From a virus, in IMG/VR virus record IMGVR_UViG_3300021364_000796, positions 1 to 27,657 of that record: a DNA stretch of 27,657 nucleotides; one strand, given 5' to 3'. The position numbers and the translations under genes are program-made. The number at the start of each line of letters is the position of its first letter. The stretch's first letter is position 1. The notes beneath the pieces were generated by a model. The model was given only the letters and a program-made list of their open reading frames with translations. It did no database searches and was not told the DNA's origin. This document shows positions 3,075-27,604 of the stretch, piece by piece.

Positions 3075-4142
3075 TTATATTCGTTTAAATTCTACGTCAA
3101 GTTTAGAATAATCGACAAGATCATACCCATCGTTTCCTTTTATTACAGCTTCTTTTGGTACTTCATTAGACATAACACCTTGATATGTGTGACTACCGTG
3201 TTTTTTATCTATATATTCAAATGAATATATTTTTAAACCACTATTAGATCTACCAATTAGTTTTATATTCTTTTTTAACCTTATATCAGAGCCTGTGTAT
3301 ACTGGAGCCGTAGGTGTTATACCTCCACCTACAGGGACAATACCTTGAGACGTTAAAGTGTTGACAGGTGTAACTTGTGGAGTAAATCCTCCGAAATTCA
3401 TTGCAGCTCCTTGAATACCGCTTCCAAGTATTTGCGTAGAACCGCTAATACCAGAAGACATTATATTAGCAGCGTTTTGCCTAGCTGCTGTTGATACTTG
3501 TTGTTGCCCAGTTATCTGCGCTTGCAACCTATTTAACTGCTCTGTTTCTCTTCTTTCTTTTTCACCATAAACAAACTCTCTACCAAGAACATCAGCTTGT
3601 TGTATACGCTGCGCTTCTGTCATCTGAGCTTGCTGCACCCGCTGCGCTTCAGACATTTGTTGTTGTTGTAAAAATTGTTCGCCTTGAGCTGCTAGTTTAT
3701 CGTTTTGAGCTTCTTGTAGTTCTAACGATTGAGATACACCTCTTTTACTTTGCAAAGCAGCTTGAGCAAGAGCAGTTGCACCACCTGCACTAGCACCAGT
3801 AGCAGCTAATAAATCTAATGTATTAGCTAAAGCTATATCAGCTTCTTCCGCTTGGAATTTAGCAGCTTGAGTTGCAACGCCTAGATTTTCAAAAGGATTA
3901 GATAATATACCTGAATTATCAATAATCATATCTTCTAAAGAAACTACATCATCATACGGATTTATAATTTCTTGGCGAGCAAGTTCTAGCTCGTCCATCT
4001 CCGCTGATAAAGCGTTTGCTCTGTCTTCTGCCCTTCTCGCTTGTTTAGATTGCGCATTACTAGCGGACTTACTAGCTGCATATGCTCCACCAGCTGTGAT
4101 AACCGACCCCGCTATAATAGCTCCTGCTGTTCCTATGGCCAT
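3075..4142 (-). CDS. Internal virion/tail protein with C-terminal S74 chaperone domain
   Basis: A 355-aa protein. Residues 1-25 are hydrophobic and small (AIGTAGAIIAGSVITAGGAY), like membrane-inserting ends of podovirus ejection proteins. The region 25-225 is Ala/Gln-rich helix with a 10-residue repeat (MSEAQRVQQAQMTEAQRIQQ at 163-182). The linker 226-283 is Gly/Pro/Thr-rich. Residues 285-355 form a peptidase S74 intramolecular chaperone: SDIRLKKNI at 285-293, YSFEYI, YQGVMSNEVPKEAV and YDLVDYSKLDVEF. In known S74 proteins the chaperone aids trimerisation and cuts itself off at the Ser before Asp, here Ser285. At ~71 residues this is a short form. An ejected or tail-tip role is inferred. Confidence 0.78.
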   Translation of the reverse strand: MAIGTAGAIIAGSVITAGGAYAASKSASNAQSKQARRAEDRANALSAEMDELELARQEIINPYDDVVSLEDMIIDNSGILSNPFENLGVATQAAKFQAEEADIALANTLDLLAATGASAGGATALAQAALQSKRGVSQSLELQEAQNDKLAAQGEQFLQQQQMSEAQRVQQAQMTEAQRIQQADVLGREFVYGEKERRETEQLNRLQAQITGQQQVSTAARQNAANIMSSGISGSTQILGSGIQGAAMNFGGFTPQVTPVNTLTSQGIVPVGGGITPTAPVYTGSDIRLKKNIKLIGRSNSGLKIYSFEYIDKKHGSHTYQGVMSNEVPKEAVIKGNDGYDLVDYSKLDVEFKRI

Positions 4143-4554: not shown

Positions 4555-5997
4555 TTAATAACTTGATTCCACGTACTCAGATGATACGGCAAATAGCTCA
4601 CGGGTTTTACCACCGTTACCTACCACTTGTGTACTATCATCTGTTCTTATAGTCACAGTTGCGTAGTAACCTTTTACACCTGAAATAGTATCACCCCACG
4701 TAACTTCACCCGCTGTCTCTTGACTGTTATTTATAAGATTAGCAAAATACTTACCTTCTTTTTTGTAGAAGCCAGCGTAATATTGTATACCATTTTGTGA
4801 ATAACCACCTTCGTCGTAACTTATTATAGATAGGTTTGCGTTATTAAGATCTGGTCTTATCGAGTTAGAAATGTCCGTTAACTCAAAGCTTCTAGCCGCG
4901 TTAAATTCAGAAACTTCCCAACCTGTAGATCCTTCGTAGTTTATTGTTTTAAATACTTTAGACAAGCTTACCTGTGGGTTGAATATAAAAGTTACACTAG
5001 CTTTAGAATATATACCATAAAATTTAGACCTGTTGTTATCTTGCCCAGGTTCTTGGTAGTTGTGTATATATAGTTGTCCGTCTTTTACACTGTAGTATCT
5101 AGACTTAAAACTAAACGCTTGCTCTGGTTTGTATGTAAATCTACTGGTCCAACCTCTAACAGTTTCATCATACGATAAAGTTTGATAAGTATCAGTAATG
5201 TCTTCGCCTTGCAAACTAACGGTGTACTGCTTCGTGTATATATCCCACGCGCCTACGGCTTTATCATTGATACTCAAACTAGAAAGTTCATCTCTAAAGT
5301 AATCATACATGCCGTAGTTAGATATTTCAGTGATACCATCTTGTGATAAACGTAGCACGGCATTTCTATTTTTATCTACAAAATATTTTCTATATCCATA
5401 CACTGCAAAACTTTCTGGATTATTACTTATACCAAAGTTACCAGCGTAAGGAATTATCTGTCCGATAACTAGATTAGCAGATGTAACAGTTCCACCACCC
5501 TCGGCAGAGTATATAGCATCTTTATCTATAAGCGCTCTGCTAACTTTATTTTGTTGAAATATAATAAGGTTTGTATCTTCAGCATACAACTTTTGTATAC
5601 TACCATTTGCTGGATCCGCAGCTTTTGTTATGTCTTCACCAACACTAAATACATTTGTGTCATTGATACCAGTTCTAGAGTTAAATATACCAGAGTATAT
5701 AAGCGCGTTACCTCTTGTACTTCCATTAGGTTCGTCATCTACAAGATAGGCTCTTACACCATAATCTATGTTAGTGTTGTTATAGCCACCACGTATACGA
5801 GCTTCTTCAATAAACCAACTAGCATCTTGAGCGTCTTGAGAATATGGTCTAGTAGTTACAGGATATGCACCTGACACGCCTGTTGGTATCCCAGTACTAC
5901 CGTCCCACGCTGGTGGTATAACGCCTGTTGGTGTTTGAGTATGTGTCTTCTTTAATAAAAAAGAGTTAAAGTATTTTACTTCTACTACTGCTCCCAT
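4555..5997 (-). CDS. Tail protein, distal partner of the large nozzle protein
   Basis: A 480-aa protein beginning MGAVVEVKYFNSFLLKKTH. Its core has ASWFIEEARIRGGYNNT, GVRAYLVDDEPNG, IYSGIFNSRTGINDTNVFSV, LYAEDTNLIIFQQNKVSRAL and SQDGITEISNYGMYDYFRDE. It ends with a smaller beta domain and FAVSSEYVESSY. The repeated short beta blades (residues ~70-290) suggest a beta-propeller as in podovirus nozzles. It is just 12 nt after the 1499-aa gene. It would be a structural part of the tail, possibly the tip. Recognition of the family is from remembered marine phage proteins; the fold is inferred. Confidence 0.7.
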   Translation of the reverse strand: MGAVVEVKYFNSFLLKKTHTQTPTGVIPPAWDGSTGIPTGVSGAYPVTTRPYSQDAQDASWFIEEARIRGGYNNTNIDYGVRAYLVDDEPNGSTRGNALIYSGIFNSRTGINDTNVFSVGEDITKAADPANGSIQKLYAEDTNLIIFQQNKVSRALIDKDAIYSAEGGGTVTSANLVIGQIIPYAGNFGISNNPESFAVYGYRKYFVDKNRNAVLRLSQDGITEISNYGMYDYFRDELSSLSINDKAVGAWDIYTKQYTVSLQGEDITDTYQTLSYDETVRGWTSRFTYKPEQAFSFKSRYYSVKDGQLYIHNYQEPGQDNNRSKFYGIYSKASVTFIFNPQVSLSKVFKTINYEGSTGWEVSEFNAARSFELTDISNSIRPDLNNANLSIISYDEGGYSQNGIQYYAGFYKKEGKYFANLINNSQETAGEVTWGDTISGVKGYYATVTIRTDDSTQVVGNGGKTRELFAVSSEYVESSY

Positions 5998-6009: not shown

Positions 6010-9000
6010 TTAAAACGTACAAGGTAACGCGTATGATGTTCTTTTACCAAGCGTAAAATCAGCTGTATAAGCACCATCTTTAGTAAATTCAGGATTACTA
6101 GGAACTCCAGGAACTCCTACAGTTTGCAACCTTCTGTATCTAAAACCTTCTGGATCATTGTTAATCTCTGTTGCTACATTAGTAAGCGCTTGATCTGTAT
6201 ATAAGGTAGTAACATATTTTGCAAAAGGTTCTGCCGCGTAATATCTAGTGCTTGTAGGTACGAAAAAACCACTACAAACATTGTTGTCAGCTATTTCATA
6301 TTCGTAAACGCCTGGGACGTTACTAGCCCACTGCACGCTGGGATTATTAAAGTCACCAAATTCATACTCTGCTTGTATATCAAGGTTTACATTTTTAGTA
6401 CAATCAATAGAACCAGACGTGCTACTGCTAACCGTATTACCATGGTAAGCACCCCAAGGAACACCGGCAGCAGTTCCATCATTTAATCTTGATTCTAAAT
6501 TACCTATTAAGAACCTATATTCTCCACCATCATTAAAAGCAAAGACCTGAGCTCCTTCAACTTGACCATTTGTTGTTGCGTTGCTTACTAATATACCTGT
6601 TGCTCCATATGCTGTGTTACCAAGAGAATCCCATCCGTTAGAAGTAGGTGATGTCACACTGTCATATCTCCAAGTACCAGCAACGCTTGGGTAAAGGCCT
6701 TGACTAATAGCTCTGCCTTCAATATCCTCTGCGTCTGTCCAAGTATTAACTGTAGTGTTTTGCTTAAATCTTAAGTTCCACCTAACATTAAGCTCTGTTG
6801 TATCAACAACTATCCTTGTATTAACACCTCTTACTATTAAATAGAAAACATTACCTCCACTTACAAGAGTGCGTGGGAATAAATTTCTTTTTTTATTATA
6901 AAATTTACCTGTGTATGTTGGATTTGGAAAAGAAGCACAAATATCTATGTCTAAATCATTAGTAGGTCCAAACCCAGTAGGAAAACTTATACCATTTAAA
7001 TTATTAAGTGATTGTCCTCCTAGATAATTTGGTAAATCAGCAAAAGCAGTTGTTAAGCTTGTCGCAGGATCAACAAACCAAATGGCTGTTCCTTCGCCGT
7101 CGGATATTGAGCCAGACGTAATAAAATCACTTGGAAAATTAGAAGTACCACCAAAGTTTACAGTGTAAAGTATATTTGTGCATAATTGATCTGGATTTCC
7201 AGCGTCACAAATTCTAAGAGTAAAATCAATAAGTCCACTAGCGTTAGGATCTGTATTTTCAACAGTGCTACCTACAATTACAAATTGACCTGGAAAATCT
7301 TGAGTTGGTATACTATAAGTTAACCCTTGTGTATATGTATTAGTATTAGGATTGTTTGTACTAGAACCGTTAGTACCAGATAATTGTGTAATTATTACGG
7401 TTTGACCTACCGTAGCATTTATTACCGTTGCTGCTGATGGTGTAGAGGTATTTGTAGGCGGTTCATTTGTAAGCGAGCCCTGCTGGGTAAGTGTACTAAT
7501 ACTACCAGAAACATCTACTGTAAAAGTAAATGTATATGCTTCTGCTTGTCCAGCATTAGAACCGTAATAAAAATAACTATTAGTTTGTATTTTAAATTCT
7601 CCGCTTCCAAGAGAAATAAGTGTAAAGTTACTTGTTCTGTTAAAACCTAAATCGTCTTGAACGGTCATTGTTGCCGTAGCTGTTGTTAGATCTTGACCTA
7701 GTATATCTTTAAACTTAAACACGCTTGTTATATCATCACCAGGATCGTTAGCTTCTGTATGATCATAGATAAAGTTATCTATAAGATAAGCTTCACCTGT
7801 TGACGATGCTACAGCTGTGTTAAGATCATTTATAAGTCCAGCCGTGCTAGTTTCATAAAATAAATCAAGTCTTGATACCGTTGGCGCTGTTTCTAGTATA
7901 GCTAAGTTTTCGTATTTTTTATACGTTGGAGTACCTTGGTTTTCAATATTTAATAAACCAAATTGATCTGCAACAGTATTTTGACTTGTAACAAATTCTG
8001 CTATAAAAGGGTTTGATTCAGATTTGAAAAAAGCATAATATGGGTTTGCGTCATCTGTTATAGGGGTGTTTTTAACAGCTTCAGCTACATCAAATAAATC
8101 AAATAAATCTTCTATGTTGTTTGTAGTAAATGAAAGTCTAGAATCTGTAGGTATGTATTGACTGTTACCAATGTTACTAAAAGATCTATTTGTATTTTCT
8201 ACCCTACCAAAGAGTCTAACAGAACTTCTAAAAGTTTTATCTTGCGGCCCAACTTCTGATAAATCTCTAGGAACTTTGTTTATGTTATCATTTAAAAGTG
8301 TTATAAAAGATGTGTTTTGCTGAGAGTTAGATCCTGACCAATCCGGCAGTCCTTTAATAGCGCCATTAGTGTAAACGTTGTAATATTCTTGTTCTAGTTG
8401 TTTAACAACTATCTTATAACTATACCAACCCAATGGTTTATATTGTGATGAACTAGCATCACTATCATATAAACCAGGTGTTAAATTTGTTTCGTTTTTA
8501 TCGCTAGATATTACTTCGTTAAATAAAACTTTTAACGAATCACCTATGAAATCAAGTGAATCATTGGTTGATCTATAAGGCAAATAAACAGTATCCGCAC
8601 CAAAGTCATCTCCTGTTTGAGGAGATTGATCATTAGATAATATAACGGTTGATTGTCTACCATATCTATCAGAAAGAACAATACCTACTTGATAGTTCCT
8701 ATTTTGTTTAACAGAGTGGTTTGGGTATTCAACGGTTGAAAAAGCAGAAAATATTTCATTGTCTACATCAGTTGTAGAATATTTATCAGTTACCGCCACT
8801 TGATATTTTATAAAACTAGGAGGAGTGTGTTTTGTTTGAAAATTAGAATATACAACTCTGTTAGAAATTATTTCTTGACCTAAAGCTTTTACAGGTACTT
8901 TATCGTAAACCCTTGTTATTTCATTATCAGGTAAAGTTTTGTATGGTTTTTGAGAAAGATACGAATATTCAAAAAACGAATAATCACTAGTTATACCTTG

Positions 9001-10509
9001 AGTTGCGTTTCTAGTTCTAATATCATCAATAGGTAGTGTTTCTACAACTTGCAAAGCTAAACCATCTGACTCTTTGTATATAATATCAACTTCTTCTATA
9101 TGAAAGTTTTTTTGCAAATCACTAAGAGCGCATGGTAACGGTATTTGTAAATCTATTTTATTAACTTTATTTTCCATAAAGTCAACAACCGTACTAGAAA
9201 ACGTTTGTTTTTCGTCACCTTGTAAAAAATAACCATCTTGCTTTGGTATAAAACAAGGTTGTGTAAAAGGAGCTATTAAAGAATATTCACCATCATCAAA
9301 TTTAAATCTATAACTAAATCTAACAAATTTATCTTCTAAAAATTGAGGATCACCCGCAAAGGTTTGATCGTAATATGGGTTAGCGGTAGAGCCGTTAGGT
9401 AGATTAATGCTAGTAACATCATACATAGATGTTTCTAATCTATTAAATTCTAAAGCTAGATTATCAGATAGTGTTACCTCTTTGTTTAAAGTTATTGTTG
9501 TCCCATTTACATCTATTACATATGCAAAAATTTGTTCTTGAGTTGTGGTAACTAATATTCCTAAGCCATCGTCTATAGTTCCAACAACATTATCAACTTC
9601 TATAACTTTAGAGTTTACAACAGCACCGTTAACATCAGCTGTAGCTACTTGAGCTCCAGACGTATTTGTGTTATAACCACTAGTTTTAAAAACGTTTATA
9701 GCTTCATAAGGATAATATTTTGCAACTGATATATTATCTTCGTTTGTATAATAACCTTCTATAGATGTAATTGTTAACTCACCGTCACTACCATCTACGC
9801 CTACCGTATCACTTTCTTGATAACCATTTCCAGAGTCTATTATTTCAACACCTGTTATAAAACCAGGGCCACCGCCGAAAGCAAAAACTCTAACAACAAG
9901 TCCGGATCCATTACCCGTTATAGCTGTTGTAGTGTAAATACCGTTAAAGTAGTTGCTACCTTGATCAGATACGCTAACAGTAGCTACTCCACCTCCGTTA
10001 GTTATATTATTCTCAGCAACTTCATTTGCTTTACTTACGTTTATTTTTCTAGGTTGATTTCTGTTATCTGTAAAAAACAAAAAATCTTCTAAAAGATTTA
10101 TACCTATTATAGGTCTATTTGTAGAAAAATTAAGAAAAGCTCCTTCTACTAATTTAGTTATAACATTAGTTCTTATGTCATAAGAGTATATAAAGTTATT
10201 AGCGTTTGGAAAATAAGTTGGAGTTGAAGTAAGATAGTCATCTGTATAATCTGTAAAAAACAAATATATAATATTATTAAACTCATCTACAAAATAACCA
10301 ATACACGAAAGACCAGTTACACCTGAATCATTCTCAAAGTCAGCAACGCTGTGGTTTCCCAAAACGTTTTCTAACGCGCCAACATCATCACCTTCTGACT
10401 TGCTAACTTGTATGTTAACAGCGTCGCGATATTCACCTTGTGGCACAAGCCTAGAATCAAGGTCTTTGTTCATCTTTGATTTGATGAACGCGTTTTTAAC
10501 TTCAGCCAT
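6010..10509 (-). CDS. Large tail hub/nozzle ('muzzle'-type) protein
   Basis: A 1499-aa protein. Residues 10-55 hold SKMNKDLDSRLVPQGEYRDA and SEGDDVGALENVLGN, a signature I associate with large tail tube/nozzle proteins of marine phages. About 170-250 is a Gly/Tyr-rich beta repeat (GSNYFNGIYTTTAITGNG; GVEIIDSGNGYQESD). About 1015-1122 looks like an Ig-like domain (TVGQTVIITQLSGT; ending NILYTVNFGGTSN). The C-terminal ~370 residues are variable beta, ending FTLGKRTSYALPCTF. It would form the tail below the connector rings and gate DNA release. Length and place match the ~1,400-aa muzzle of crAss-like phages, but homology to it is not shown here. It may be part of a split protein with the 480-aa gene. 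Confidence 0.75.
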   Translation of the reverse strand: MAEVKNAFIKSKMNKDLDSRLVPQGEYRDAVNIQVSKSEGDDVGALENVLGNHSVADFENDSGVTGLSCIGYFVDEFNNIIYLFFTDYTDDYLTSTPTYFPNANNFIYSYDIRTNVITKLVEGAFLNFSTNRPIIGINLLEDFLFFTDNRNQPRKINVSKANEVAENNITNGGGVATVSVSDQGSNYFNGIYTTTAITGNGSGLVVRVFAFGGGPGFITGVEIIDSGNGYQESDTVGVDGSDGELTITSIEGYYTNEDNISVAKYYPYEAINVFKTSGYNTNTSGAQVATADVNGAVVNSKVIEVDNVVGTIDDGLGILVTTTQEQIFAYVIDVNGTTITLNKEVTLSDNLALEFNRLETSMYDVTSINLPNGSTANPYYDQTFAGDPQFLEDKFVRFSYRFKFDDGEYSLIAPFTQPCFIPKQDGYFLQGDEKQTFSSTVVDFMENKVNKIDLQIPLPCALSDLQKNFHIEEVDIIYKESDGLALQVVETLPIDDIRTRNATQGITSDYSFFEYSYLSQKPYKTLPDNEITRVYDKVPVKALGQEIISNRVVYSNFQTKHTPPSFIKYQVAVTDKYSTTDVDNEIFSAFSTVEYPNHSVKQNRNYQVGIVLSDRYGRQSTVILSNDQSPQTGDDFGADTVYLPYRSTNDSLDFIGDSLKVLFNEVISSDKNETNLTPGLYDSDASSSQYKPLGWYSYKIVVKQLEQEYYNVYTNGAIKGLPDWSGSNSQQNTSFITLLNDNINKVPRDLSEVGPQDKTFRSSVRLFGRVENTNRSFSNIGNSQYIPTDSRLSFTTNNIEDLFDLFDVAEAVKNTPITDDANPYYAFFKSESNPFIAEFVTSQNTVADQFGLLNIENQGTPTYKKYENLAILETAPTVSRLDLFYETSTAGLINDLNTAVASSTGEAYLIDNFIYDHTEANDPGDDITSVFKFKDILGQDLTTATATMTVQDDLGFNRTSNFTLISLGSGEFKIQTNSYFYYGSNAGQAEAYTFTFTVDVSGSISTLTQQGSLTNEPPTNTSTPSAATVINATVGQTVIITQLSGTNGSSTNNPNTNTYTQGLTYSIPTQDFPGQFVIVGSTVENTDPNASGLIDFTLRICDAGNPDQLCTNILYTVNFGGTSNFPSDFITSGSISDGEGTAIWFVDPATSLTTAFADLPNYLGGQSLNNLNGISFPTGFGPTNDLDIDICASFPNPTYTGKFYNKKRNLFPRTLVSGGNVFYLIVRGVNTRIVVDTTELNVRWNLRFKQNTTVNTWTDAEDIEGRAISQGLYPSVAGTWRYDSVTSPTSNGWDSLGNTAYGATGILVSNATTNGQVEGAQVFAFNDGGEYRFLIGNLESRLNDGTAAGVPWGAYHGNTVSSSTSGSIDCTKNVNLDIQAEYEFGDFNNPSVQWASNVPGVYEYEIADNNVCSGFFVPTSTRYYAAEPFAKYVTTLYTDQALTNVATEINNDPEGFRYRRLQTVGVPGVPSNPEFTKDGAYTADFTLGKRTSYALPCTF

Positions 10510-10515
10510 TTAATT

Positions 10516-11730
10516 TTAGTGTTTAATCCATTTAGACTTACCTCTCATAACCTGAACAAGTTCGTTAAGTTTGAGATTAGACAAACGTATTTTAGCGTTT
10601 CTAAGTTTAGCACTACGTTCTTTTTTCAAACGCATTACCACATACTCCGGTTGGTTTATTTGAGATGCTATTATAGCATGCGATATATGTGCATAGATGG
10701 CTTCTTCTGCTAGCTTTGGTATCCTAGTATCTACATCAGTAGAAAGCCCATCAGAAATGTATTCTATGACTACAACTCTATCTACTAAATTAGCAGAAAA
10801 AGAAAATTTATTGTATCTTTCATCTATGGTAAAATATCCATTAGCATTAGCAAACTGTGGGTCAAGTCCAAACAGTTGACCGTAGCCGAACTCTGGATAG
10901 CCGTAATAATATTCCCAGCCTAATATAGTATCGTTAAGTAAATCTTGGTTGTTTGCGTTTTTAAGAAAGTTGTTTTTCCAGCGATAATCAGTTATAGAAG
11001 TTGTGTCAATATTGTTACCAAACTCATCTTGAATTGGTACACCTTTATTATCATCTAAAAAAACGTCTGTTGGATTTGTAGTAAGACCATCGCCTGGCAT
11101 TATAACGTGCTTAACACCAGAGTTATCTATCCAATATAAGTTAACGTAGTTAACGTAATCTTGAGGCATAGGTATGCTCAAGTTGTGAGGTACAGTAACC
11201 TCTAATTTGTTTACACTTTTTAAAGTGTCATAGCTAAATTCTTGTAAACCGCGTTTAGCATGGAATACAACATCAGTTCTTTTTACACTAGGTATAAGTT
11301 TACCATCACCTACGTATGCTACTAAAAAGTTATTTACAACATCATCTAAAGATATATACGCATATGATCCGTAGTTTTTTTCTACAGCATCGCCATACGC
11401 TTTCTCCTGCTGTGTGCTTGCATAGTTGCCACCATCCAATTTTTTTAACTGTACAACTATATATAGGTTATTAACTGGGGGCGTGTTAAAAACAATAGTA
11501 TTATTTTCAACGGTATAATCAGCAACAACTTCACTCCAAGAACCAGGCGTAGCACTAGCGCTAGTGTATATTTTAAAATTATTTAAAGAATAATTAACAT
11601 TAGTGTTACTAGCTGCACCAAATACTAAATTAGTATTAAATGTTGTAGTAAAGCTAACAGTGCTTCCATCACCTCTAAAACCCTGAGCACCTTCGTAATA
11701 TTGTCTATTGTTTTCCGTAAGTAAGCTCAT
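10516..11730 (-). CDS. Connector/ring protein, copy B2, with extra N-terminal domain
   Basis: A 404-aa paralogue of the 194-aa protein. Residues 127-171 (SLDDVVNNFLVAYVGDGKLI; VVFHAKRGLQEFSYDTLKS) and 336-404 (RIPKLAEEAIYAHISHAII onwards) match copy B1. Between them the beta region is expanded to ~150 residues with Tyr/Asn-rich loops (GWEYYYGYPEFGYGQLFGLD). A new domain of ~110 residues precedes the core: FRGDGSTVSFTTTF at 18-31 and DYTVENNTIVFNTPPVNNLY at 71-90. That pattern resembles the N-terminal attachment domain of T7-type tail fibres. It may be the outermost ring, carrying a docking domain for fibres or the tail hub. Confidence 0.7.
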   Translation of the reverse strand: MSLLTENNRQYYEGAQGFRGDGSTVSFTTTFNTNLVFGAASNTNVNYSLNNFKIYTSASATPGSWSEVVADYTVENNTIVFNTPPVNNLYIVVQLKKLDGGNYASTQQEKAYGDAVEKNYGSYAYISLDDVVNNFLVAYVGDGKLIPSVKRTDVVFHAKRGLQEFSYDTLKSVNKLEVTVPHNLSIPMPQDYVNYVNLYWIDNSGVKHVIMPGDGLTTNPTDVFLDDNKGVPIQDEFGNNIDTTSITDYRWKNNFLKNANNQDLLNDTILGWEYYYGYPEFGYGQLFGLDPQFANANGYFTIDERYNKFSFSANLVDRVVVIEYISDGLSTDVDTRIPKLAEEAIYAHISHAIIASQINQPEYVVMRLKKERSAKLRNAKIRLSNLKLNELVQVMRGKSKWIKH

Positions 11731-11733
11731 GCG

Positions 11734-12516
11734 TTAACTTTTTTTATTTATTTCGTTCTGTTGTATTTCCGACGCTGCGGCTTGAACAATTTGAGGATCT
11801 CTAATGATGATACCGGAATATTGCAGTATTCTAAGTATAACATTAGTTTGTTCTTCTGGTAATAATTCAAAATCATATGAAGCTCCTGGGTTATAATTGT
11901 ATTGTCCTAAACCACCAACGCTATATGCCCAAACAACATTAACAGGTCTTCTTATGAAGTTTGCTTGTATATCGCTTGTTATAGTTGTTGGAGCTACACT
12001 CAGTGAACCACTCTCGTAAAGATATGTTGGAAAATTTGTGCTAGGCATTGTTAACTCAGATTTTTGTATTTCGTAAAAATCATCTCGCTGTAATCTTTGC
12101 AATTCAACTGGATAAGTACCAGCAGTATAAACTACAGTGCCTAATTTGTAAAAAGAAAAATTACCCTGAGTTCCGTCCCACGGTGCTATTATTTGATAGT
12201 TATCATCGTATACAACACCAGCACCTGTTATAAGATCCGTGGTAGGAAGATTAAATCTACCACCAGAATAAGTACAATCACCAATACATTTGAATGTAGA
12301 TATTTTTTCATCTATACTCATCTGCCTATTAGTGTAATCATAATCAGCTTGTTGTACTCTTAGTTGTTGATTTAAATCGTCAAAATATTGTTCGAATATA
12401 TCTAATTGTACTTGTGTAGCTGTTTTATTAAACTCATCAGGCGTCATATAACCACGTTGCTCTTTGTTTAATATAAGCAACACGGTTTGATATACGTTGT
12501 TTACGTTAATCGCCAT
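11734..12516 (-). CDS. Connector/ring protein, copy A2
   Basis: A 260-aa paralogue of the 232-aa protein. It shares MAINVN.VY..VL.IL..E, then TP.EFNK.ATQ.Q..IF, YFD.LNQ.LR and DEKIS in the first 75 residues, and YNYNPGASYDFELLPEEQ with ILQYSGIIIRDPQIVQAAA near the C-terminus. The central beta region is ~25 residues longer (it holds GGRFNLPTTDLITGAGVVYD and IIAPWDGTQGNFSFYKLG). It sits 11 nt after copy B1, in the same order relative to a B gene as copy A1. It probably forms a second ring or adaptor in the connector stack. Confidence 0.7.
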   Translation of the reverse strand: MAINVNNVYQTVLLILNKEQRGYMTPDEFNKTATQVQLDIFEQYFDDLNQQLRVQQADYDYTNRQMSIDEKISTFKCIGDCTYSGGRFNLPTTDLITGAGVVYDDNYQIIAPWDGTQGNFSFYKLGTVVYTAGTYPVELQRLQRDDFYEIQKSELTMPSTNFPTYLYESGSLSVAPTTITSDIQANFIRRPVNVVWAYSVGGLGQYNYNPGASYDFELLPEEQTNVILRILQYSGIIIRDPQIVQAAASEIQQNEINKKS

Positions 12517-12527
12517 GCTGTTTTATT

Positions 12528-13112
12528 TTAGTCGAAATTAGTAAATACTAATCTTGATTTAGCTGTTTCTAACTTATCTGTTTTTTCTATAAGTAATCTT
12601 TGTAACACGTCTGGTCTAGTATCACCTCTATTCGCTAATATAGCGTAAACCATGCAGGAGTATAGCGCTTCTTCTGCTAGTTTAGGTATAGCAGCTGACT
12701 CATCAGTGGTAAGCGCGTTTGATAAATATTTTAAAACTAAATCTCCTTTAGCTACGTCAGTAGCGTTAAAAACTATTTGTTTGTTAGCATAATCTACATA
12801 GTACTCACCTGCTGCTGGAGCAGGGTTAGAAGTTTCTTCTAATGTTTCAGGTGGAGTATCTACTGTTATAGATATGATAGCAACCATTGACGATGGAAAA
12901 TCAAGTGGGCTAGTAAATGTAGCTTCTTCTTCTATAAATTGACTTTTTAAAGTTTCATAAGCAAACTCTTGAAGACAACGTCTAGCGTGGAATACTACTT
13001 CAGTTCTTACAGCGTCTGGTATTAATTTTCCAGGACCTGTATAAGATATTAAAAAGTTGTTTATAACATCATTCAATGATATAAAAGCGTTTGATAAAGA
13101 TGTATCTGCCAT
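12528..13112 (-). CDS. Connector/ring protein, copy B1
   Basis: A 194-aa protein. Residues 12-57 carry LNDVINNFLISYTGPGKLIP and VRTEVVFHARRCLQEFAYET; a small beta segment fills about 58-135; the C-terminal helices start at IPKLAEEALYSCMVYAILA (142-160). This helix-beta-helix plan resembles P22 gp4/T7 gp11-type connector proteins. The helical parts are repeated in the 404-aa protein downstream, making it the short version of a duplicated gene. It would stack under the portal with copy A1. Ring position is inference. Confidence 0.7.
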   Translation of the reverse strand: MADTSLSNAFISLNDVINNFLISYTGPGKLIPDAVRTEVVFHARRCLQEFAYETLKSQFIEEEATFTSPLDFPSSMVAIISITVDTPPETLEETSNPAPAAGEYYVDYANKQIVFNATDVAKGDLVLKYLSNALTTDESAAIPKLAEEALYSCMVYAILANRGDTRPDVLQRLLIEKTDKLETAKSRLVFTNFD

Positions 13113-23435: not shown

Positions 23436-23834
23436 CTACTTATTGTTACTTGATTTTTTGTTTTTTTCCCACGTTCGCCCTACGAAATACGCGCCGTAAA
23501 CGGTTATAAGTAGTGATTGAAAAATAGGTATATAAGCCTCATCTACTTGAAAACCACCAATGTTACCATCGAAAAAAGATAGCGCTGTAAAAATAACCGT
23601 CAAATAAACTAACACAAGAGGGCGAATGTTTTTTGAAAGAAAACTATCACTCTCCATATCTAGCTTCCAACGCTCTGTTACTTGATCTTGAGCGTCTTTG
23701 TCGGCTTGTTCTAAAAGCTCTTGTAGCTTTTGTTTAGCAGCTAATCGTTCTTCATCTGTAGTGGTAAGTTTGTCAATAACATTACCTACATCTTTAATTA
23801 GGTTACCAGATAAAAGGCTTAAAAGTTTTTTCAT
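23436..23834 (-). CDS. Holin, GTA/3TM-holin-like
   Basis: A 132-aa protein. It has an N-terminal amphipathic helix (MKKLLSLLSGNLIKDV), a charged coiled-coil-like segment (residues 26-52), then the family hallmark ERWKLDMESDSFLSKNIRP at about 54-72. Two hydrophobic segments follow, at about 72-89 and 103-120 (VYLTVIFTALSFF; FQSLLITVYGAYFVG), with a basic C-tail. The W..D..SDS.L...RP pattern matches the gene-transfer-agent holin family (GTA_holin_3TM). Holins form holes in the inner membrane to release or activate the endolysin; the M15 endolysin lies ~1.2 kb upstream in the same operon. The N-terminal helix may be the third membrane-associated segment. Confidence 0.75.
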   Translation of the reverse strand: MKKLLSLLSGNLIKDVGNVIDKLTTTDEERLAAKQKLQELLEQADKDAQDQVTERWKLDMESDSFLSKNIRPLVLVYLTVIFTALSFFDGNIGGFQVDEAYIPIFQSLLITVYGAYFVGRTWEKNKKSSNNK

Positions 23835-25011: not shown

Positions 25012-25473
25012 TTAAATTACTCTATAAGTTGTTTTGCCATCTATACGCTCAGCCCGTAAACACCTGTTTCTATTTTGATCTTCAGAAACCCAGCTGATAT
25101 GCACCCAGTCAGGGTTTTCATCTGTACCAAACTCCCAGATCATTTGATCAAAGTTTAAGTTTTCTTTTATCCAATTAAACATTTCAGCGTTTGTAGCGTG
25201 ACCATAAGTGTCGTCAATATCAATTGCTCTACCTTGGCAATGTTGTGATCTAGAACTTCCGCCTATAGCTTTATTAAGCTCTATAGATCTAAAAAATGAA
25301 TTTACTTTTATAGGATCATTAACCCACTTACGCAACGGTTCAAATATATTTTCAGCAACACCAATCATATTACTAAGCTCGTATTCGTTGGGTTTATTTT
25401 CTAAACCAAGACGTATAGCTGTAAGACTTCTTGTAGCCTCTTTATAACTTATGTGCTTACTTATATTTTCCAT
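25012..25473 (-). CDS. Endolysin, peptidase M15-type
   Basis: A 153-aa protein with the zinc-ligand layout of M15 D-Ala-D-Ala/L-Ala-D-Glu peptidases. FFRS at 60-63 supplies the usual Arg; SQHCQGRAID at 76-85 gives His78 and Asp85 as ligands; WVHISW at 123-128 gives His125. The phrase 'IGGSSRSQH..GRAIDID' is typical of the Peptidase_M15_3 family. There is no signal peptide, so release to the cell wall would need a holin. It would cleave the peptide stems of peptidoglycan at the end of infection. It sits between the membrane/coiled-coil gene (6-nt gap) and a small basic protein (1-nt gap). Family call is confident; the exact bond cleaved is not visible. Confidence 0.88.
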   Translation of the reverse strand: MENISKHISYKEATRSLTAIRLGLENKPNEYELSNMIGVAENIFEPLRKWVNDPIKVNSFFRSIELNKAIGGSSRSQHCQGRAIDIDDTYGHATNAEMFNWIKENLNFDQMIWEFGTDENPDWVHISWVSEDQNRNRCLRAERIDGKTTYRVI

Positions 25474-26900: not shown

Positions 26901-27344
26901 TTATCTTTCTTTATCTTTGTTAACGTTTTTAATAGCAAACGAGTAAACTTTATCGCTGTAGCTTTTGCCTTTCATTATACTATTTCTTCTAGTGCTAGTA
27001 GGTATATCTTCTTCACCTAGCATTATTTTATATACTCTTGATATTAATTGTTTACCTTTAAACGAAACTTTATATATATTATACTTCTGTGTAGTTCTAT
27101 TATTTCTTCGCCAAAGCGTAATCCAATCATTTTGTAAAAGCTTGTTCCATCTGCGGTTATCCCAACTAAAAGAATATGTACCGTCTTGAAAATCTTTTCT
27201 AGTAAACATATCCATGCAGTCTAAATAAATTAAAAGTTCTAGCTCTGCATCGTTTAAACCATTGTTTTTACAAGCCCACTTACGTATTATACGATAGTGT
27301 TTAAGAAGATTTAAATCCCTAATGTCACTAGCATCTATTCTCAT
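26901..27344 (-). CDS. MarR-like winged-helix protein
   Basis: A 147-aa basic protein. Its order of elements fits a MarR-type winged helix: helix 1 (LLKHYRIIRKWACK), helix 2 (LNDAELELLIYLDCM), a short FTRKDF turn, a WNKLLQNDWI recognition-helix segment, a wing with YNIYKVSFKGK, then a long closing helix (QLISRVYKIMLGEE). The C-terminal tail is rich in Lys, Arg and Ser. It would bind DNA in the cytoplasm and could control the late operon it sits in, but no operator is evident. Its start overlaps the co-chaperonin stop by 4 nt, so the two are probably translated together. The fold is inferred from pattern only; no sequence signature proves DNA binding. Confidence 0.55.
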   Translation of the reverse strand: MRIDASDIRDLNLLKHYRIIRKWACKNNGLNDAELELLIYLDCMDMFTRKDFQDGTYSFSWDNRRWNKLLQNDWITLWRRNNRTTQKYNIYKVSFKGKQLISRVYKIMLGEEDIPTSTRRNSIMKGKSYSDKVYSFAIKNVNKDKER

Positions 27345-27604
27345 AGTACAACTACAACATCAATATCTCGTATAACGTAAAAAACTTCTTTATCTACTTC
27401 AAGGCGATGGCTAGCGTTTTTATCATAGAATATTGTTTGACCTTCTTCTATACCTTTAACATCATTACCGCAATGAAGTACAGTTGCTTCTTTATAACGA
27501 ATATCAACTCTTTGTTTGCCGGTTAACATAAGACCACCATCTGTTTTTTTAATGGTATCTTCTTTTTTCTTTTTTATTACTATATTTCTACCTATTGCTT
27601 TCAT
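27341..27604 (-). CDS. GroES-like co-chaperonin
   Basis: An 87-aa protein, close to the ~95 aa of bacterial GroES. It shows the family pattern: an N-terminal strand (IGRNIVIKKK), a loop with GGLMLTG at residues 23-29, a central strand (EATVLHCGND), EEGQTIFYD at about 53-61 and a C-terminal VIRDIDVVVVL strand. The loop matches the GroES mobile loop (GGIVLTG), whose hydrophobic triplet docks onto GroEL; here the triplet is LML. Phage-encoded co-chaperonins such as T4 gp31 are known to cap host GroEL so that the capsid protein can fold. The gene lies upstream of the capsid genes on the same strand and overlaps the next gene by 4 nt (ATGA). I infer the same role here. The fold assignment is fairly secure; action on capsid protein is inference. 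Confidence 0.82.
   Translation of the reverse strand: MKAIGRNIVIKKKKEDTIKKTDGGLMLTGKQRVDIRYKEATVLHCGNDVKGIEEGQTIFYDKNASHRLEVDKEVFYVIRDIDVVVVL

Follow-up and report, generated by a model that had tools for sequence, protein, structure and literature searches.

The window, which is the whole 27.7-kb virus record analysed here, carries its tail region on the minus strand in the order terminase, portal, scaffold-like ORF, major capsid protein, 256-aa ORF, A1, B1, A2, B2, and a two-gene muzzle homologue. The features of interest are listed below.

4555..5997, minus strand: muzzle homologue, C-terminal part (PF25729, crAss_MUZ_C)
6010..10509, minus strand: muzzle homologue, N-terminal part, the next gene after B2 (phrog_14478)
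10516..11730, minus strand: B2, predicted ring/adaptor protein with a fibre-type domain, probably inserted, 404 aa
10519..11370, minus strand: B2 ring body, residues 121-404, helices and beta domain (phrog_13977)
11371..11436, minus strand: B2 linker, residues 99-120 (..DGGNYAS..KAYGDAVEKNY), of low confidence in the model
11437..11688, minus strand: B2 predicted fibre-type jelly-roll domain (ND), residues 15-98
11689..11730, minus strand: B2 N-terminal arm, residues 1-14 (..ENNRQYYEG)
11734..12516, minus strand: A2, partner virion protein directly upstream of B2 (phrog_14543)
12528..13112, minus strand: B1, extra ring-type paralogue without the domain, 194 aa
13118..13816, minus strand: A1, paralogue of A2 (39% identity), paired with B1

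The window muzzle matched PF25729 with an E-value of 2.1e-10 and 41.3 bits, above the cut-off of 27 by which a Crassvirales muzzle is recognised, and the score for the crassvirus major capsid protein family PF23898 was 12.6 bits, under its cut-off of 27. Of the several ring protein genes that mark Crassvirales (R1, R2, R3/R4), two of ring type, B1 and B2, were found in the window, and by sequence the A proteins could be placed with neither ring nor hub proteins.

Ring body, distribution and probable insertion site

The body of B2 matched phrog_13977 over residues 117-393 (E 3.7e-39), and residues 1-116 were covered by no Pfam or PHROGs match in the scan of the window proteins. In the full-length AlphaFold2 model, which was built from 47 sequences and had a mean pLDDT of 64 with poor linkers, residues 121-404 resembled the portal-vertex chains of phicrAss001 (Z 9.2 for 7qoi_FS and 9.1) and the T7 adaptor gp11 (7ey7_M, Z 6.5), and Foldseek paired the ring body with 7qoi_FS at an E-value of 4.6e-4. 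Two characters of the adaptor family were found in B2, namely the predicted fold of a helical bundle with a beta domain and a gene adjoining the muzzle gene. As modelled, B2 is a podophage tail ring (adaptor) protein, and the phage is related to the crassviruses. By sequence, B2 alone hit only a prohibitin chain among solved structures (E 1), and the profiles of B2, the domain, A, and the combined B proteins gave no meaningful match to the solved relatives.

The original prediction, that B2 has about 110 extra N-terminal residues relative to B1 with the strand motifs of a fibre N-terminal domain, was borne out in its description of the sequence. The extension amounted to 115 residues (B2 residue 122 aligned with B1 residue 7, 69% identity over 51 aa), and the motifs GDGST...F and YTV..N.I.F..PP were located where they had been placed, in GDGSTVSFTTTF at residues 20-31 and DYTVENNTIVFNTPPVNN at residues 71-88. 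The GDGST motif was variable, with DAGGTAGQ at the same place in several relatives. The further claim that the domain is peculiar to a second copy of B did not hold, because most relatives have a single A-B pair whose B protein bears the domain. Relatives of the 116-aa N-region were encoded in 264 IMG/VR stretches, and in all of the best 80 IMG/VR relatives the B2 alignment started at residue 1 or 3, so the extension is no chance feature. The A1-B1 pair was present in 15 of these 80 loci, and the others had only A2-B2, with a domain-bearing B. B2 represents the common form; B1 is additional and exceptional, and in four loci (L002, L008, L010, L067) it was cut to 123 aa so that the helical parts remain and the beta domain is gone. 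In a tree of the ring body with the N-region left out, a branch with a support of 100/100 parted the domain-less relatives from the domain-bearing B2 proteins together with B1, which formed a long branch; the tree suggests that B1 likely lost the domain. No B2 relative turned up when contigs of bacterial and archaeal genomes were scanned, and 50,697 phage records contained no tblastn match to the domain, so that no cultured domain-bearing phage was among them. The viruses of the domain-bearing clade are numerous, related to crAssphage, and mostly marine.

Comparison with the domain-less relatives pointed to a probable site of insertion. The rings of Maribacter phage Panino, MW202828, Flavobacterium phage elemo, the Cellulophaga phages phi38:1 and phi13:2, and related IMG/VR contigs consist of a short arm (e.g., MAYISQYQYYENNGNTPEDANWGSYQYVSL) followed by the ring. 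The five named phages share with B2 the homologous ring body and the gene order A-B-muzzle, but they lack the inserted domain and have an arm of about 15-25 residues. The order in B2 is ..ENNRQYYEG, the domain, and then ..EKNYGSYAYISL. As the ring of the domain-less relatives is preceded by a short arm, the domain was probably inserted between the arm and the ring body, which is the simplest reading of the sequences. Homology between the arms of domain-bearing and domain-less rings is suggestive only (p 0.06-0.75 per sequence in shuffles). In the related XD domains of CBA120 the first and last strands adjoin (PMC8825819), which suits an insertion. The domain in B2 is followed by a ring/adaptor body, so it is not the N-terminus of a fibre or tailspike. 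Among 47 relatives the arm had a mean pairwise identity of 86%, and its residues 1-11 were of low confidence in the predicted model.

Predicted fold of the N-terminal domain

A second AlphaFold2 model, of residues 1-116 from 33 sequences, had a mean of 74, with ten-residue blocks of 84-91 over residues 21-90, and both models agreed on a compact beta-jelly-roll at residues ~13-97. In the VIA search this domain matched the N-terminal domain of the T7 fibre gp17 (gp17-N) with Z scores of 7.4 (2.2 Å over 70 aa), 7.0 (1.9 Å over 67 aa), and 6.8, and it also matched the Carin 1 tail (7.3), LME-1 (7.0), Kp7 (7.0), HRP29 (6.7), CBA120 TSP4 (7rfv, 6.9, rmsd 2.1 Å over 63 residues), and T4 gp10 (5iv5_AC, 5.0), and the scores went down to 3.5 at rank 50. 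VIA scores of 7-8 may be unspecific, and a Z near 7 can be common in small beta domains. Of the 18 highest-ranking rows, 17 were phage chains, for the most part from fibres, tailspikes or tail complexes, and since one functional class fills the top ranks, the assignment of a fibre-type fold is persuasive despite a Z of about 7. Foldseek in the PDB returned the same names with modest E-values (best 2.1e-3), and in BFVD 53 matches were found at E<=1e-3, of which the named ones were mostly tail fibres or tailspikes. The phicrAss001 hub chains were absent among the domain matches listed, which excludes nothing.

The sequence evidence pointed more faintly in the same direction. None of 33 members scanned at E<=10 matched PF03906, and ten of the 33 matched PHROG 18673 'tail fiber' (best 1.5e-4). 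In the cases with a listed stretch this match spanned no more than ~25-35 residues at the Y.V..N.I.F..AP strands, which supports a fibre-type domain and does not prove it. In hhalign the domain scored P 0.0075 against 12 fibre N-domains with a probability of 5%, which is not significant alone, and unrelated controls gave P 0.21-0.72; in this weak match residues 17-32 of B2 and the fibre profile were paired in the register of the structural alignment. Matches of single members to Lipocalin_4, CBM_X2 and other Pfam families were weak and scattered and were discarded.

Of the proposed T7 gp17-like fibre N-terminal domain, the predicted fold and its fusion to a ring/adaptor protein stood, and membership of PF03906 by sequence did not. 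The prediction for residues 1-120, for which a fold unrelated to fibre attachment would have told against the idea, resembled fibre-attachment domains, the best solved matches being the N-terminal domains of fibres and tailspikes. The fold of the domain and the architecture of B2 are well supported. The B2 domain resembles gp17-N (PF03906 / IPR005604) in predicted fold (68-70 aligned residues at Z 6.8-7.4), strand order, and the register of the first hairpin, but it sits on a ring instead of a fibre shaft with a receptor-binding part, and has no Pfam or significant sequence match. It shares the jelly-roll class with XD2/XD3 of T4 gp10 and XD2 of CBA120 TSP4, which are platforms receiving other fibres, although those proteins are trimeric and fibre-like baseplate proteins, not ring proteins. 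Like B2, the gp11 adaptor has a helical ring with a beta domain (in gp11 the fibre-dock jelly-roll); what B2 has in addition is another beta domain, placed between the arm and the body.

Fibre anchors and a possible docking role

A ring with a fibre-type domain had been suggested to reverse the usual arrangement, with a check on whether the receptor-binding protein lacks the domain; the reversal was examined here in the sense of a move of the domain from fibre to ring. In G003, a long relative, two large fibre-like proteins begin with MAIIYSYP..., and a 57-residue query from one of them found the same N-terminus in G001, G002, G006, and G007. A related form of the anchor occurs in elemo (MARIKTYTIDTLISDNDIIIGSDADNNNETKNF), and the same class, judged by eye, begins large ORFs of MW202828 and phi38:1. 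Tail-protein PHROGs matched one of the two G003 proteins weakly, and the MAI[IL]YSYP proteins are putative fibres on the strength of their architecture and such weak matches. The short crass-type N-terminal anchor was thus common to the fibre-like proteins of the domain-bearing phages and of the domain-less phages examined. The domain profile found no copy other than that of B2 in eight long domain-bearing records, and nothing in seven domain-less records. Neither set showed a second copy by sequence, and because the anchor class is shared by phages with and without the ring domain, no swap from fibre to ring is visible within the group; there was no evidence for the reversal. Capture of the domain from the phage's own fibre was likewise rejected, since neither the domain-bearing nor the domain-less relatives searched showed it at another place. 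Moreover, the jelly-roll fold is also the receiving side of the joint in T4 gp10 and CBA120 TSP4 (PMC8825819), so the fold cannot tell plug from socket.

Several known joints bear on the position of the domain. The T7 fibre domain occupies the space that separates adaptor from nozzle (PMC6702177), and its counterpart in Vibrio phage Peru-2 is inserted where the symmetries of adaptor and nozzle mismatch (PMC13320782, a preprint). In phicrAss001, residues 15-26 of ring R5 bind the muzzle and handle the symmetry mismatch by two conformations. Its fibres are attached through gp22 residues 1-26 to separate hub proteins, which are themselves bound to R1 and R2; of these ring proteins, phi13:2 has the homologue of R3/R4 alone (PMC10172136). 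The system of phicrAss001 (R1-R5 and the hub proteins THA/THB) resembles that of the window in the ring body fold, the adjoining muzzle gene, and fibres with a short N-terminal anchor, but no such inserted domain has been described in its rings, and its fibres rely on the separate hub. Because the domain directly follows the arm of a muzzle-adjacent ring, it would lie at the site of the T7 fibre. This site in T7 and Peru-2, together with the socket role of the fold in T4 gp10 and CBA120 TSP4, makes a docking collar at the ring-muzzle joint, which helps to seat the tail fibres, our first choice and the best explanation by analogy, and we hold it with about even confidence.

The function of such a collar is inferred. 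The ring would be a dodecamer, as its family suggests, and the arm and the domain would be placed at the ring-muzzle joint like the N-terminal residues of R5. Twelve domains would then form a collar helping to seat tail fibres whose own N-termini would be only the short crass-type anchors (MAI[IL]YSYP...), and the adaptor itself would supply the gp17-shaped domain which in T7 comes from the fibre, filling the adaptor-nozzle gap. The domains of gp17-N and the XD type act as trimers and the ring would present twelve, so the geometry must differ. The domain-less relatives use the same class of anchor, which means that fibre docking as such does not depend on the domain. A more specific version, in which the ring contributes the gp17-type side of the joint with the fibre and the twelve domains are the hub, with the direction of the joint inverted relative to T7 and no separate hub proteins, is tentative and rather doubtful.

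An alternative is that twelve jelly-rolls decorate the tail neck and weakly bind sugars of the host surface, with no part in fibre docking. Ig-like decorations are common on capsids and tail tubes and have been proposed as accessory host binders (PMC13320782, PMC11313276), and the domain has diverged more quickly than the ring (identity 58%, vs 80% for the ring helices) and tolerates an extra ~80-100 residues ahead of its last strand (L048, L049, L051-L054, L057, L058). However, the best fold matches are fibre anchors and not Ig decorations, a nearly invariant arm precedes the domain, and the domain is under purifying selection and is not hypervariable. In comparisons of B2 with four close relatives, dN/dS was 0.09-0.25 for the domain, as against 0.06-0.11 for the ring, and the values for the domain are more in keeping with docking or a structural role than with a receptor-binding role that evolves fast. 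We regard adhesion as unlikely. A purely structural role, in which the domain fills the ring-muzzle slot taken up by the fibres in T7 and bridges the 12:6 mismatch or braces a two-polypeptide muzzle without touching the fibres, appears slightly less probable still. The muzzle homologue is two adjacent genes in the domain-bearing genomes examined and one gene in four of the five domain-less relatives (MW202828, elemo, phi38:1, phi13:2), and the two conformations of R5 residues 15-26 show that ring residues can handle the mismatch (PMC10172136). Yet Panino has a split muzzle without the domain, domain-less rings cope with the same mismatch, and a clamp needs no fibre-type fold.

The last alternative is that the domain does not derive from a fibre but from duplication of the jelly-roll fibre dock of the adaptor itself, and that its likeness to gp17 comes only from a shared simple fold. 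T7 gp11 does have a small jelly-roll fibre dock (PMC6702177), and the domain also matched a 170-residue portal-neck chain of T5/DT57C (putative identity), VP1, and GTA tail chains at Z 5.9-3.9. The fibre N-domains scored higher (up to 7.4), and the profiles of domain and ring body found no mutual match; such a duplication is very improbable.

A ring/adaptor protein with a fused gp17-type domain was not described in the literature searched, which covered few subscription journals. The docking collar would bear on the seating of fibres in phages with crassvirus-type tails other than those of the gut lineage, for which the domain offers a specific and testable attachment site. A ring protein with such a built-in docking domain would show that the two partners can exchange the fibre joint or that it can be doubled. 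The domain is conserved across hundreds of environmental contigs, from phages without a solved structure, and the annotation of these proteins, listed merely as 'virion structural protein' or hypothetical, is hereby corrected.

Other genes of the window and its relatives

Insertions were also observed in the neighbouring proteins. Five A2 homologues of 401 aa (L038, L041, L042, L055, L060) carry a large insertion, which in L042 consists of glycine-rich 'GGTGY' beta repeats, and residues ~172-358 of the window muzzle form an insertion with motifs resembling these repeats. At 3075-4142 the window encodes a virion protein with an internal/ejection-like start and an S74 chaperone-like end (PF13884, E 0.011, below the cut-off). 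A candidate peptidase M15 endolysin (PF08291, 3.1e-15) lies at 25012-25473, and a holin-like protein with three TM segments (PF11351, 7e-6) at 23436-23834. A GroES-like gene (PF00166, 2.8e-7) is located at 27341-27604; G003 has a GroEL gene (L176 8193-9746, PF00118, 6.6e-55), and GroEL-like ORFs are also present in MW202828 and elemo. Downstream of its tail genes, G003 carries one ORF of 2744 aa (L178 2594-10828), a stretch of which matches the phage polynucleotide-kinase family phrog_415 (1.4e-5), and MW202828 has an ORF of 3859 aa in a comparable place.
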